In this document: one piece after another, positions 10,099 to 15,983 of the stretch
How positions within the stretch are numbered: position 1 is the first letter of the stretch
How the letters are laid out: each line of letters starts with the position of its first letter
NCBI GenBank assembly: GCA_002070025.1
Contig: MWCL01000016.1
Location: 1 to 35,318 of the forward strand
Source: Spirochaetes bacterium ADurb.Bin215
GTDB taxonomy: Bacteria; Spirochaetota; Spirochaetia; Treponematales; Treponemataceae
DNA length: 35,318 nt
Direction of reading: 5' to 3'
Program-made: the position numbers and the translations under genes
The notes under the pieces: model-generated
What the model was told of the DNA's origin: nothing
The model's input: the letters and a program-made list of their open reading frames with translations, nothing else
Databases searched by the model: none

Positions 10099-11634
10099 TT
10101 GTCGCAGTCGGCAACCATGAGCATTGTTCTTGAGGCCCTTCACGAGCTTGTAGACTATGAGCTTGCGGTAGTACTCGATTTTGACGGAGAGGATACCCTG
10201 TCCGTTCATACCGCGACCGGTCCGCTCTCCGGCCCCGCGTTTAAAGAGTTTTCCCTTTCTCTTACCAAACGGCCGGATATCCGCCGTCTTCTGGAAGCGG
10301 AAAAACCGCATCTGTTCGCGGAAGACGAGTCCCATGTTGACACCTACGATAAAATACTCGACTTGCCCGACGCGCATTCGTGCATGGTTTCCCCGCTCAT
10401 TGCCGGCGGGGAGGTTATCGGTCTTCTGACTCTTGATCACCGGAGCTGCGGAATCTTTTCACGCGAAATTCTCAATTTTATCGGGGTTATTTCCCGGCTT
10501 ATTGCCATTGCCCTGCAGCAGGCCCGGCGGGAAGCCGATTTGCAGGATGTTACCGTACGTCTCGCCGGGGAGCGGAACAGGCTGCTTTCTTCCAAAGCGG
10601 ATGCGTACCGTTCCTTCGCCGGGGAATCGCCGGCATGGAAAGCGGTAGTGGACATGTTGACCTTGGTGTCCGCGACCTCGTCCCCCGTGCTCATTCTGGG
10701 CGAAACGGGTACCGGCAAGGAAGAAGCTGCCCGGCTCATTCACCGGCTTTCGCCGCGAAGCGACGGCCCCTTTGTCGCGGTAAACTGTTCCGCCCTTCCG
10801 GCAACGCTTGCGGAAAGTGAATTGTTCGGGCACGAGAAGGGCGCGTTTACGGGCGCACAGGCGCTCCGGAAAGGACGCTTCGAACTCGCGAACGGCGGAA
10901 CCCTCTTCCTTGACGAAGCCGGTGACCTGCCGCAGGAAATACAGCCAAAATTGCTTCGTGTTTTGCAGGAAGGACTTTTCGAGCGGGTTGGCGGTGAGCG
11001 GTCGGTTCATGTTGATGTCCGTATTGTCGCGGCGACAAACGCCGATCTTTCAAAGGCGGTCGGGGACGGCCGGTTCCGGGAGGATCTCTTTTACCGGCTT
11101 TCGGTGTTCCCGGTGTCGTTGCCCCCGCTTCGTGAACGCGGAAACGACGTGCTCCTGCTCGCCGAGTTTTTTGCGCGTCGTCTCCGGGAGGAACCGGGCT
11201 GGGAAAACCTGTCGTTTTCCGCCGACGCGCTCGACATGCTCCTGTGCCGCGAGTGGCCGGGAAATGTCCGTGAGCTGAAAAACGCGGTTGAGCGTGCGGC
11301 AATCCTTGCCCGCGGCGGCGAGATGACCGCGGATCACTTCGCGGACTCGGCAATGCGGTGTGTGTGCGTGCCGGCCGCGGGGAACCCAACTCCCGCGGGG
11401 CTATCAGCTGCCACGGGGAGCGCAACTCCCGCGGGGAGCACAACCCCCGCGGGGTTACCAGCTTCGTCCATCGTTTCGCTCGCCGAGGCCGAACGCGAAC
11501 ATATCCGCGCGGCGCTTGCTTTATCAGGCGGGAAGATTTACGGAGAAGACGGGGCTGCGCGTCTTCTCGGACTTAAACCGACGACACTCCAGAGCCGCAT
11601 GAAAAAACTCGGGATTACACCGGAACGCGTTTGA
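10075..11634 (+). CDS. Sigma-54-dependent transcriptional activator (GAF - AAA+ - Fis, NorR-like)
   Basis: The product (519 residues) has an N-terminal GAF sensor domain (about 15-165), an AAA+ domain (about 190-420) and a C-terminal Fis-type helix-turn-helix ([20 protein letters not shown]). The AAA+ domain shows Walker A GETGTGKE, the sigma-54-contacting loop GAFTGA, Walker [13 protein letters not shown] and the arginine-finger region [22 protein letters not shown]. The layout is that of NorR-type regulators, in which GAF senses a small molecule such as NO. The ligand here is unknown. Its position opposite a peroxiredoxin with a sigma-54 promoter points to redox or peroxide sensing. An alternative start at 9976 would read through the promoter, and ATG 10117 is also possible. 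A Pro/Ala/Gly-rich repeat lies in the AAA+-HTH linker. The 3' end overlaps hydE by 20 bp, convergently. Confidence 0.92.
11387..11454. repeat. In-frame intragenic repeat inside the sigma-54 activator gene
   Basis: CAACTCCCGCGGGG at 11387-11400 and 11423-11436, and CAACCCCCGCGGGG at 11441-11454. The offsets of 36 and 18 bp are whole codons. It encodes NPTPAG, SATPAG and STTPAG units between the AAA+ and DNA-binding domains. The middle unit contains a near-palindrome (CTCCCGCGGGGAG). It is related to the array at 5511-5597. Confidence 0.75.
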
Positions 11635-12670
11635 GGCTGTCCGCCCGGGAATAGTCCAGTTCGAGGCCGGCGGCCAGAGCAAGACCCGCCATGCAGCCGG
11701 CGCAGGCACCGGTTTGTTCGGTTACGCACCGTTTCCCGGGATAAATCTCATATTTCTTTTTTACGTCCGCAGGCGAAAAGTTCGGCATGACCACATTCGC
11801 TCCGGCCCGGAGCGCGTCCACCCGGTAATCCTGATCCAGGCTGCCGAGTGCCGTGGTCGCCGGGAGCCAGGCATTCCGGCTCGTAAGACGGATGAGCGCG
11901 ACCGTCCGCAGGGTGAGCTTGAGGTCTCCGGTTTTCGCGTGTGCGAGCGGTGTCTCCGGATGCGGAATGAAGGGGCCGATGCCGATCATGTCGTATTCGC
12001 GCTGGGCAAGAAAACGGATGTCCTGCGCGATTATATCGAGGGTCTGTCCGGGTGGGCCCACCATGAAACCGCTTCCGGTCTGGTAGCCGAGTTCCTGCAG
12101 GGTATCGAGACAGGCAAGCCGGGTTTCAACCGTCCTCCCGTCATGAAGTGAGGCGTAGAGCGCGGGATCGGTGGTTTCAACGCGCAGGAGATAGCGGTCG
12201 GCTCCGGCGTCTTTCCAGCGGGCGTAGTCGGCCCGGGGGCGTTCGCCCACCGAAAGGGTGATTGCCATGTCGTGTTCGCTCTTGATCCGGGAGATAACAT
12301 CCGCGAGTGTTTCCGCCGGCATGCCGTCTTCTCCCGCCTGTAAAACTATGGTGTGTATCCCCGCGTCCCAAACGAGCCGGGCGCTTTCCACCATTTCATC
12401 GGGAGTAAGACGGTAGCGTTCGGCTTTACCGTTTGCCCGGTTGAGTCCGCAGTAATGGCAGGTATTCCCGCAATAACTGGAAAATTCCACGAGGCCGCGG
12501 AGCACCATGCGCGCACCGCAGTAGCGGTCACGTACATCGGCCGCCGCAGCGAAAAGAAGGGCGTCTTCTTTGGGGCTTTCATTGTTGAGCAAAAAAACGA
12601 GGTCTTCCTGCGCGGCGTCGGGGTTTTCGCGTACCCGCTCGAGACAGTCGGTAAAGCCGGGGCGTGTCAT
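11615..12670 (-). CDS. hydE: HydE: [FeFe]-hydrogenase maturation radical SAM enzyme
   Basis: This 351-residue protein is one of three maturases that build the 2Fe subcluster of the [FeFe]-hydrogenase H-cluster. HydE acts on the product of HydG. The radical-SAM motif is CGNTCHYC (C67, C71, C74), inside [13 protein letters not shown]. The SAM/barrel strands continue with VLQAGEDG, and [12 protein letters not shown] lies near the middle. A C-terminal [12 protein letters not shown] matches the auxiliary-cluster cysteines found in some HydE proteins. The start overlaps the hydF stop as ATGA. It is the last gene of the operon, and no terminator is visible before the convergent activator gene. No hydrogenase structural gene lies in the window. 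Confidence 0.94.
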
Positions 12671-13956
12671 TCAGGCGCTCCTTTTGCGGTGCGTCGGTCT
12701 TTTACCGCGTGGTAGGCTGCGAGAGCTTCAGGGAAGGGTGAAAGGGTGCGCTCGGCAACACCCTGCAGCACTGAAATGGCGATGCCGTAGTTGGTTACCG
12801 GGATACCCGCCACACGGGCCTGTTCGATCCGCCAGAGGGTTTCCCGCCGGGTAAGTGTACAGGCGCCGCAATGGATGATGAGCGCGAATTGTGAGAGATC
12901 GGTTGGATACTCTTTCCCGGCGGTGTGTACGCACGCGATATCGAGCCCGGTAAATTCGCGGAGCCATTTGGGAATCTTGATTCGTCCGATATCATCCAGA
13001 AGCGGATGGTGGGTACAGGCTTCGGAGATGAGAACCCGGTCTCCGTCCTTGAGCCGGTGTATGGCCGCGCCTCCCTCCGCCATGAGGGTAATATCTCCCT
13101 TGTAGCGGGAAAAGAGGATGGAGAACGTGGTGCAGGCAATATCGTCCGGGGTATCGACGACCATTTTCCGGGCAACCTGTGAATCGCAAACCACGAGGTC
13201 CGGTTTTTCGGCAAGCTTTGTGAGGAACACGGGATACCCGTTTTCCTTGACGACGGTCGACGCGGCGTTGAAATCGAGCGTGTCGCGAATCGCCTGAACC
13301 TGCGGGAGAATGATCCGGCCCTTGGGCGCCTGGGTGTCAATCGGGACAATGAGGACAACATGAGGGGTGTCCTTGCCGGCAGGCAACAGGTCGCCGAGAA
13401 TGGCGGGCGGCTCCAGGAAGTCGTCGGGACAAACCGTTAGAATCAGTTTCTTGAAGTCCTGGATTATCGCCTCGCGTTCGGCCGGATTCTGCTCCGCCGT
13501 TGCGCAGGAAATGCGCATGATGCGATCCGCGGGGAGCGTTTCCGGCAGTTCCGCGGCGTTTTCCGGGGGCGTCATGTCGCTCTTGTTAACGACAAGGATG
13601 AGCGGCGTGTTCTGCTTTTCCGCTTCAGCGGCAAGGGCCGCCTCATAGTCGGTCCAGACTCCGGGTTCAATCACGAGGACGGCTATGTCGCTCGAGGTGA
13701 GGGCTTCCTTTGTCCGGCCGATTCTGAGTTCGCCAAGGCCGGAATCGTCATTGATGCCGGCGGTATCGAGAAAGGTAACCGGTCCTACGGGAAGAAGCTC
13801 CATGCTCTTGCGGACCACATCCGTTGTGGTGCCGGCAACCGGTGAGACAATGGAAATGCTCTGTCCGGTAATGAGGTTTACGAAGCTCGATTTTCCCGTA
13901 TTCGTCCGTCCGAATATACCGATATGCAGACGAAGGGCCTTGGGCGTTTCATTCAT
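12667..13956 (-). CDS. hydF: HydF: [FeFe]-hydrogenase maturation GTPase and scaffold
   Basis: The protein (429 residues) carries and delivers the 2Fe subcluster to the hydrogenase. The N-terminal GTPase domain has P-loop GRTNTGKS (16-23), switch PVAGTTTD, G3 FLDTAGI and VVNKSDM. The middle of the protein dimerises. The C-terminal part holds the [4Fe-4S] ligands, CTHHP followed by HCGAC, matching the family CxH...CxxC pattern. It lies 9 nt after hydG and overlaps hydE by 4 nt, so hydG-hydF-hydE are surely co-expressed. Length is normal for the family. Confidence 0.94.
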   Translation of the reverse strand: MNETPKALRLHIGIFGRTNTGKSSFVNLITGQSISIVSPVAGTTTDVVRKSMELLPVGPVTFLDTAGINDDSGLGELRIGRTKEALTSSDIAVLVIEPGVWTDYEAALAAEAEKQNTPLILVVNKSDMTPPENAAELPETLPADRIMRISCATAEQNPAEREAIIQDFKKLILTVCPDDFLEPPAILGDLLPAGKDTPHVVLIVPIDTQAPKGRIILPQVQAIRDTLDFNAASTVVKENGYPVFLTKLAEKPDLVVCDSQVARKMVVDTPDDIACTTFSILFSRYKGDITLMAEGGAAIHRLKDGDRVLISEACTHHPLLDDIGRIKIPKWLREFTGLDIACVHTAGKEYPTDLSQFALIIHCGACTLTRRETLWRIEQARVAGIPVTNYGIAISVLQGVAERTLSPFPEALAAYHAVKDRRTAKGAPE

Positions 13957-13965
13957 GAAAAACTC

Positions 13966-15510
13966 CTAGAAGTAAATATCTCTCTCCCCGGCGAGAATTC
14001 TCGCCCGGGCTTTTTCGAGGTGATTCAGTTGCGCCTCGGAGAAGTCCGCGGGAACACGTTCGCGGACCTCTTTCATTTCCTGTTCGATGATGGTATCGCC
14101 AATTCTCTTTGTCTCCGGTGTGGCGAAATCTTCAAGCCATTCCTGGAAGGTGAGAATGGCGTTCAGTTTACAGAAGCACCCTTCCTGTCCGGACGCGAGG
14201 GCATCCATTATTTTCTTTCCGGTTCGGCCGCAACGGTAGCCGGCGGTACAGAACGAAACAATGTGACCCATTTCCGCGAGTTCCCGGATAATTGCGTCGA
14301 GGCTCCGGGTGTCCCCCAGGATGAACTGCTGGCGTTCGCCTTTCTGATCGTCTCCGCCACCTGCTTCCGCGTCTGCGGGGAAAGCGTCCGCGTAGGCTCC
14401 GATTCCGACGCGGCTGTCCGCGTCGCGTTGGGTACACATCTTGATGACCGAACGGAGCATCTCCGGGCTTTCCCGATTGGTTACGATGAGTCCGGCATAG
14501 GGAATGGCGAGGCGGAGTACCGCGATGAGGAACTTGAACTCATCGTCGCTTACCCGGTGTTTGACCCAGGAGAAGTCGGTGTCGGATGCGGGCTCGAGCC
14601 GGGGAACGGACACGGTATGGGGTCCGAGGCCGTAGCGTTTTTCAAGGTCCCGCGCGTGGGCGACCATGCCCATTACTTCGAACTTCCAGTCGTAGAGACC
14701 GAAAAGCGCGCCGACGGCAACGTCGTCGATACCGGCGTCCATGGCGCGGTGCAGGGCATAGAGGCGCCAGGGATAATTTCCCTTGAGGGTTCCTTCCGGA
14801 TGTACCTCGCGATAGGTTTTGTGGTGGTAGGTTTCCTGGAATACCTGGAAGGTACCGATTCCCGCTTCGTGAAGCTTCTTGAGGTCGTCTATGGGAAGGG
14901 GCGCCGCGTTTACATTGACCCGGCGAATTTCTCCAACACCGTTTCGCACCCGTTCCTTGATCGAATAAATGCGCTTCATGCTTTCCGCGATATAGTCGGC
15001 ATCGGTTTCCGGGTGTTCGCCGTAGACGACGACCAGACGCTTGTGCCCGATCTTCGTTGCGAGCACCCGGGCTTCGGCTTCGATTTCGTCCATGGTGAGC
15101 ACACGGCGTTCTATTGAGTCATTGTCGCAGCGGAAACCGCAGTATTTGCAGCGGTTAACGCATTTGCTGCCGCAGTACAGCGGGGCAAAGGTGACCACGC
15201 GGTTGTCGTATACCTGGTGTTTGATCTCACGCGCCGCTGTGAAAATTTCCTCTTTGAGGTCGGGGTCCGTCACATTGAGGAGCGCAGCGACATCGGCGGA
15301 ATCCATGAGATTCACGTCGTACGCTTTTTTGATTATGGCGCGGATCCGCTCCGGTGAGGCGGCGCGGTTTTTCTCGATTTCCGCTTCGATTGCGTCGTCG
15401 TCGATAAAGTCCTTGCCGTCCACGAGGTAGCGGTCAATTTCGTCCTGTTTTATCAGGTTGTCTTTCCATTCTTTGACGGATTGTACTCCGCCGCTTGTTG
15501 CGTCTTTCAT
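13966..15510 (-). CDS. hydG: HydG: [FeFe]-hydrogenase maturation radical SAM tyrosine lyase
   Basis: HydG cleaves tyrosine to p-cresol, CO and cyanide and makes the Fe(CO)2(CN) unit of the H-cluster. The 514-residue protein has the radical-SAM motif CVNRCKYC (C117, C121, C124). The C-terminal cluster ligands are FCTAGYRCGRTG and EGCFC, the second site that binds the Fe-cysteine carrier. The ATG at 15510 has AGGAG upstream. It is somewhat longer than commonly studied HydG proteins, with an extended N-terminus (KEWKDNLIKQDEIDRYL). It sits 15 nt after the TM1266-like gene and 9 nt before hydF. Confidence 0.95.
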   Translation of the reverse strand: MKDATSGGVQSVKEWKDNLIKQDEIDRYLVDGKDFIDDDAIEAEIEKNRAASPERIRAIIKKAYDVNLMDSADVAALLNVTDPDLKEEIFTAAREIKHQVYDNRVVTFAPLYCGSKCVNRCKYCGFRCDNDSIERRVLTMDEIEAEARVLATKIGHKRLVVVYGEHPETDADYIAESMKRIYSIKERVRNGVGEIRRVNVNAAPLPIDDLKKLHEAGIGTFQVFQETYHHKTYREVHPEGTLKGNYPWRLYALHRAMDAGIDDVAVGALFGLYDWKFEVMGMVAHARDLEKRYGLGPHTVSVPRLEPASDTDFSWVKHRVSDDEFKFLIAVLRLAIPYAGLIVTNRESPEMLRSVIKMCTQRDADSRVGIGAYADAFPADAEAGGGDDQKGERQQFILGDTRSLDAIIRELAEMGHIVSFCTAGYRCGRTGKKIMDALASGQEGCFCKLNAILTFQEWLEDFATPETKRIGDTIIEQEMKEVRERVPADFSEAQLNHLEKARARILAGERDIYF

Positions 15511-15525: not shown

Positions 15526-15777
15526 CTACAGTTTTGCCAGTGTTGATTTGACGGTAACGCCCTCGATCATGCCGATCTTGCCGGTCAGGGCTCCGATTCG
15601 ATCAGTGGTGGCGTCTACCATGAGTGTGATGAGGTTGAGGTTTCGTTCGTGATACGGCAGGCCCATTCGTCCGATTATCATGTCGGCAAAGGGGGCGAGC
15701 GTTTCATTGACGAGATTGGCTGTTTCGCTTCTGTCGCGGATGATGATCGCGATAACGCCAACGGCTCTTTCTTCCAT
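15526..15777 (-). CDS. TM1266-type iron-only hydrogenase system regulator
   Basis: This small protein (83 residues) belongs to the family known as iron-only hydrogenase system regulator, a short ferredoxin-like ACT/NikR-type fold typically next to hyd maturation genes. Signature stretches are VGVIAIIIRDR, FADMIIGRMGLPY, LITLMVDATTDRIGALTGKIG and a final VTVKSTLAK. No DNA-binding domain is present, so direct DNA regulation is not evident. The ATG at 15777 has GGAGGG (15783-15788 on the complement) 5 nt upstream, which rules out the longer start at 15831. First gene of the hyd operon. That Shine-Dalgarno can pair with upstream leader sequence (see the leader entry). Confidence 0.82.
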   Translation of the reverse strand: MEERAVGVIAIIIRDRSETANLVNETLAPFADMIIGRMGLPYHERNLNLITLMVDATTDRIGALTGKIGMIEGVTVKSTLAKL

Positions 15778-15921
15778 AAAGACCCTCCAATGTATTCTGC
15801 GGAGGGGCCGCGGGCGTATCTTTGCAGGCACAGCACGGCCGGAATACGGCGGTGTGCGGAATAAAGATTCTGGCTCCCGGCCCTTGGCTTCAGAATCGGC
15901 TCTGCCTCATCCTGACCGCAG
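15778..15921 (-). promoter_or_regulatory. Structured 5' leader of the hyd operon: candidate riboswitch
   Basis: Reading the minus strand. P1: 15916-15920 pairs with 15855-15859 (TGCGG/CCGCA). It encloses P2: 15891-15897 with 15866-15872 (GATTCTG/CAGAATC). P3: 15836-15840 with 15806-15810 (GGCCG/CGGCC). P4: CCCTCC (15801-15806) pairs with the Shine-Dalgarno GGAGGG (15783-15788) over a 12-nt loop. CTGCGG at the 5' end (15916-15921) could instead pair with CCGCAG (15797-15802), which would break P4. These exclusive pairings are what a translational switch needs. I could not match it to a known riboswitch class. Confidence 0.45.
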
Positions 15922-15925
15922 GTGG

Positions 15926-15952
15926 TATATAAAAAGCATACTATATAGTTAA
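15926..15952 (-). promoter_or_regulatory. Candidate promoter of the hyd operon
   Basis: TATATA (15926-15931) on the minus strand would place the transcript start near 15919, close to the 5' base of the leader's outer stem. The -35 is weak (TTAACT at 15947-15952, 15-bp spacer). Confidence 0.35.
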
Positions 15953-15983
15953 AAAAATATCAATATACAGAAGAAATGTTGAA

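Follow-up and report, generated by a model that had tools for sequence, protein, structure and literature searches.

A conserved structured leader RNA, a candidate riboswitch, upstream of [FeFe]-hydrogenase maturation genes in spirochaetes

The 5' leader of the TM1266-hydG-hydF-hydE operon of Spirochaetes bacterium ADurb.Bin215 is structured and recurs in related genomes. The consensus of the element reads CCTGMGG-UCAGGA, a variable hairpin, UCUGAAGCC-AAGGG and then a distal strand that re-pairs. We regard the leader as a well-supported new cis-regulatory RNA; that it is a structured RNA acting in cis is very probable. Beyond this we favor, at a probability of roughly 0.57, a small-molecule riboswitch that would act on translation in response to a putative ligand.

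The leader and its operon

The window analyzed here is the whole stretch of 35,318 nucleotides (contig MWCL01000016.1, positions 1 to 35,318). The order on its minus strand is promoter, leader of about 150 nt, TM1266, hydG, hydF and hydE, and the upstream neighbor is a divergent FHA-domain gene. A terminator was not found on the transcribed strand. The parts are as follows.

15958..15963, minus strand: -35 hexamer TTGATA of a conserved promoter
15935..15940, minus strand: -10 hexamer TATGCT, with a 17-nt spacer to TTGATA
near 15928, minus strand: transcript start, inferred from the usual promoter spacing
15916..15921, minus strand: P1 5' arm CTGCGG, predicted to pair with 15797-15802 at a probability of 0.97-0.995 and coevolving among relatives
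15890..15915, minus strand: P2 hairpin UCAGGAU ... AUUCUGA, with a conserved core and a variable loop
15884..15889, minus strand: J2/3 junction strand AGCCAA, nearly invariant
15876..15883, minus strand: P3 5' arm GGGCCGGG, from coevolution and folding
15805..15815, minus strand: P3 3' arm, immediately 5' of P1', from folding
15797..15802, minus strand: P1 3' arm CCGCAG, from folding and the hand-aligned P1 test
15801..15806, minus strand: anti-Shine-Dalgarno CCCTCC, common to P3' and P1', from folding and analysis of Shine-Dalgarno partners
15783..15788, minus strand: Shine-Dalgarno GGAGGG, from sequence and folding
15526..15777, minus strand: TM1266 family putative hydrogenase regulator (TIGR03959, 103 bits; PF21699; relative of PDB 2nzc)
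13966..15510, minus strand: hydG (TIGR03955)
12667..13956, minus strand: hydF (TIGR03918)
11615..12670, minus strand: hydE (TIGR03956)

An earlier reading of this DNA from sequence only had placed the -10 box at TATATA (15926-15931). This assignment is less likely than TATGCT with TTGATA. The choice matters since TATATA would put the start of transcription inside P1, whereas TATGCT puts it just before P1, and the earlier concern that the transcript might begin well inside the leader is thus not borne out. Comparable promoters, ending 12-16 nt before CCTG, were found in 13 of the 21 leaders. In most leaders the distance from the inferred start to P1 is about 5-9 nt, which puts P1 where an aptamer would lie.

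The promoter also holds an operator-like box, ATTGATATTTTTTTAACTATA (15944-15964, minus strand), which occurs nowhere else in the genome when two mismatches are allowed; its TATTGATATTTTTTTNNCGAT part is exact in six relatives. This box is possibly a transcription-factor site.

Distribution of the element

Leaders were read at 30 TM1266 loci from order-level relatives. At 16 of these, the window included, we found CCTGMGG-TCAGGA-(4 to about 33 nt)-TCTGAAGCC-AAGGG in slightly varying form. Two covariance models, R1 with 16 sequences and R2 with 21 sequences covering only the 5' half, were run on overlapping samples, about 1,000 genomes altogether: from the order 394 genomes, from the phylum 393, from the acidobacterial phylum 247, and smaller sets from another spirochaete order (46) and a single family (23). 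Every match with E < 0.01 lies upstream of hydrogenase-maturation genes. The sole remaining model match (L112, E 0.013) falls inside a fliD-like gene and was dismissed as chance. Scanning 84,980 species genomes for the exact pattern returned 12 matches, with Treponema sp., Sphaerochaeta sp., several other spirochaetes and Acidobacteriaceae bog_96 among the carriers; one of the 12 (L077) falls in a coding gene and was likewise dismissed.

The alignment comprises 21 copies, 20 spirochaete and one acidobacterial, from several families and two phyla, and the carriers are anaerobic spirochaetes apart from the one acidobacterium. The conservation among relatives on which the first proposal had been made to depend therefore extends to 21 genomes, with compensatory changes. 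A mis-binned acidobacterial contig is unlikely, as the PheS encoded on it shares 89% identity with the PheS of a member of the same family. The bog_96 element, too, precedes TM1266, a gene truncated there at the edge of the contig. A sample of 120 members of the acidobacterial order yielded no TM1266, and therefore this copy was likely acquired by horizontal transfer; its presence suggests that the element moves along with the operon.

Fold and coevolution

The unconstrained fold of the window leader is a three-way junction of P1 (CUGCGG/CCGCAG), P2 (UCAGGAU/AUUCUGA) and P3 (GGGCCGGG with 15805-15815), and the best fold was unchanged for a shorter transcript. The stability of the leader is not unusual (z -1.1; 23 of 200 shuffles were equally good), so folding energy gives no support and the evidence comes from the relatives. 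The CC of the J2/3 strand has an alternative partner in the GG of P1.

All segments quoted in the sequence-only reading are present, namely CTGCGG (15916-15921, minus strand), CCGCAG (15797-15802), CCGCA (15855-15859), CCCTCC/GGAGGG (15801-15806/15783-15788) and GATTCTG/CAGAATC (15891-15897/15866-15872). The CTGCGG/CCGCAG pairing that it proposed is P1. The competing pairing of CTGCGG with 15855-15859 had to be abandoned, as it has a probability of about 0 in the ensemble and is not conserved. Its inner 7-bp stem is lost in a close relative (L003) that keeps GATTCTG and has GCTAATC opposite.

Coevolution was assessed with a swap test because registers would otherwise have been picked by eye. 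In this test the energy of the duplex that a 5' strand forms with its own distal region is compared to that with the distal regions of other leaders after removal of row and column effects. The swap and pairing tests ignore phylogeny, and swaps between close relatives pair nearly as well, which works against the tests; under these conditions P1 gave a permutation p of 0.0003, with none of 60 shuffled controls equal, and P3 a p of 0.007, with 1 of 60 equal. Pairing of the P1 and P3 strands also exceeded that with a shuffled distal region (combined p 0.0003); for the window alone the P1 value was not above its shuffles. In a hand alignment of P1, 79.4% of the cells were paired versus 71.5% with the strands swapped, a value equaled by none of 5000 swaps. 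The outer positions show A-U, U-A, G-C and C-G pairs, and a change from C-G to A-U occurs at position 10. At position 12 the G is replaced by A in one leader (L070), which is matched by a U on the junction side (A12-U34) and by a U in P1'. These data support a model of the element as a three-way junction built from P1, the hairpin P2 and the long arm P3.

The coevolution of distal strands also bears on the idea of a DNA-level element, an operator or a mobile repeat, in place of an RNA. The separate operator-like box conserved in the promoter itself would fit such an origin, but the conserved leader box lies downstream of the predicted start, and its halves are 4 to about 33 nt apart with a spacer that itself forms a hairpin. 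Furthermore, the element is present once per genome, as found in each of 11 deeply searched genomes, so the match to an ordinary repeat that had been named as a contrary outcome did not appear. We consider a DNA-level function very improbable.

If isolated, the 5' half of nearly all leaders folds into one imperfect hairpin, CCU-GM-GG ... CC-AA-GGG. Its outer stem (CCU/GGG) shows no coevolution (p 0.91), and this hairpin is therefore regarded as no more than a candidate second state, perhaps an intermediate of folding or a consequence of the conserved sequence.

Gene context and a possible protein partner

TM1266 lies immediately 3' of the element in 19 of the 21 copies. Among the 20 spirochaete copies, 18 precede TM1266, one precedes hydG-hydE in a genome that has TM1266 elsewhere (G020), and one is located before genes for an SsuABC-like ABC transporter, TM1266, aspartate ammonia-lyase, hydF and hydE (G060). 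The element is thus kept despite an altered downstream gene order in both genomes. In the latter (L101:1688-5997) the transporter and aspartate ammonia-lyase genes lie within the maturation operon behind the element, and the compound moved by the transporter might be a hint to the ligand.

The element follows one clade of TM1266. It is present in each of the 18 genomes in which TM1266 shares 63% identity or more with that of the window. The model searches were negative for the 30 genomes whose TM1266 is more distant, as far as the samples covered them, and the leaders at 11 of these more distant TM1266 loci gave no match with filters off. The leaders at L025 and L027-L031 are without the element, and several share, about 80 nt before TM1266, CTGAGGG-CGGAT ... 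CGAGG ahead of the Shine-Dalgarno, possibly a second leader type. In L020/L021, about 90 nt before TM1266, GGATTA..AATCTGAATGCAAGGACT looks like the element core to the eye and may include a compensated stem; R2 gives no match there and the likeness was set aside as unsupported.

Ribosomal proteins exert autogenous control on their own leaders, and the restriction to one TM1266 clade fits a protein partner equally well as a ligand. TM1266 would then bind the junction and adjust translation of the maturation genes. The protein is named a putative regulator and is encoded along with the element; in G060 its gene follows later in the operon, and G020 retains it at another locus. The same correlation would result, however, from co-inheritance of one operon type. 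There is also no sign of RNA binding in the TM1266 sequence, and the sole solved relative, 2nzc, is uncharacterized. The likeness to ribosomal-protein leaders is that the leader precedes the gene of a small putative regulator; the element differs in that it can sit far from TM1266 (G020, G060) and in that protein binding is putative. This is the main rival to the small-molecule riboswitch, and we judge it unlikely.

Comparison with known RNAs

No covariance-model match was obtained on the strand and at the position of the element with Rfam 15 (4227 families) at E<=10, either in the window or in 14 relatives, in agreement with the earlier remark that no riboswitch class with these conserved segments is known on this operon. 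At gathering and permissive thresholds the window gave chance-level matches only, all on the opposite strand. The Moco/Wco (molybdenum/tungsten cofactor) riboswitch RF01055 is comparable as a metal-cofactor RNA of anaerobes, and its tungsten-type copies were reported before hydrogenase genes (PMC9481103). RF01055 gave no match on the element at E<=10, and the genes behind the element are H-cluster maturases rather than molybdopterin genes.

In the main texts accessible to the search, no report of H-cluster maturation under control of an RNA element was found. Papers pairing hydG with a riboswitch were unrelated to the element, and the candidate-RNA surveys found made no mention of hydrogenases in their main texts.

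The element shares two properties with riboswitches: it is a conserved structured 5'-leader domain with compensatory changes, and it is consistently linked to one pathway, with H-cluster maturation genes at every accepted copy. From the earlier proposal of a riboswitch before this operon, the conserved structured leader with exclusive pairings is upheld, and ligand binding stays putative.

Shine-Dalgarno competition and proposed mechanism

In translational on-riboswitches an anti-Shine-Dalgarno strand is common to the aptamer and the Shine-Dalgarno pairing. The element is similar, with an aptamer-like junction at the 5' end and a distal strand, CCCCUCCGCAG, that can either close P3/P1 or cover GGAGGG. 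In the window this choice is exclusive: CCCTCC pairs with GGAGGG or sits in P3'/P1', so the proposed conflict between P1 and the Shine-Dalgarno stem is indeed present in the sequence. The difference from these riboswitches is that the competition appears in about half of the copies and the ligand is putative. The best partner of the Shine-Dalgarno overlaps P3'/P1' in 10 of 20 leaders, versus 6.1 expected from placement, and lies elsewhere in the others. The swap test gave p 0.04, with 8 of 60 shuffled controls equal. The exclusive pairing behind the translational switch suggested earlier is clear in the window and weakly above chance across the copies. The P3 loop of L017 contains CTCCTCGAC, a pairing partner of the Shine-Dalgarno region; in this family the expression platform may have shifted to that loop.

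Without ligand, the window leader prefers the junction over the Shine-Dalgarno-paired state by 5.9 kcal/mol, and an off factor or kinetic folding would thus be needed for switching. A leader whose fold constitutively sets translation efficiency or mRNA stability, by a stem at the 5' end or ribosome standby and with no sensing, is a further alternative: P1 at the 5' end and the free Shine-Dalgarno of the best predicted fold would suffice, and the Shine-Dalgarno alternative is weakly supported. For a stability stem the near-invariant junction residues (UCUGAAGCCAAGGG and the bulged G), kept across two phyla, would be superfluous. We consider such a constitutive role quite improbable, less so than a DNA-level function and more so than binding of TM1266.

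Returning to the riboswitch reading, the choice between Shine-Dalgarno and P3'/P1' pairing together with the lack of a terminator on the transcribed strand favors control at the level of translation, in which the formed junction would be the on state. Control of the operon through this competition is plausible. The first ~130 nt of the transcript would form the three-way junction, closed by P1 at the very 5' end, with P2 as a hairpin of conserved core and free loop and P3 as a long, variable arm. With P1 and P3 formed, the pyrimidine-rich P3'/P1' strand would be occupied and the Shine-Dalgarno free, presumably the on state. If the junction opens, the P3'/P1' strand could pair with the Shine-Dalgarno, presumably switching translation off, and the 5' half could close on itself as the longer hairpin (CCU...GGG), thereby freeing the distal strand. 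The likeliest trigger would be a small molecule of H-cluster assembly that stabilizes the junction, and the step controlled would be translation of the hydrogenase-maturation operon.

Implications

In its most specific form, this proposal would be a new riboswitch class that ties translation of the maturation genes to demand by sensing a compound from the assembly of the [FeFe]-hydrogenase H-cluster; this form is tentative and rather less than even in likelihood. Candidates for the compound sensed are a radical-SAM product, an iron-carbonyl-cyanide synthon and precursors such as tyrosine or cysteine. How cells time the building of the H-cluster is poorly known, and the ligand or protein partner of the element would name the signal. 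With its length of about 150 nt, the element is a compact test system for the control of hydrogenase maturation.
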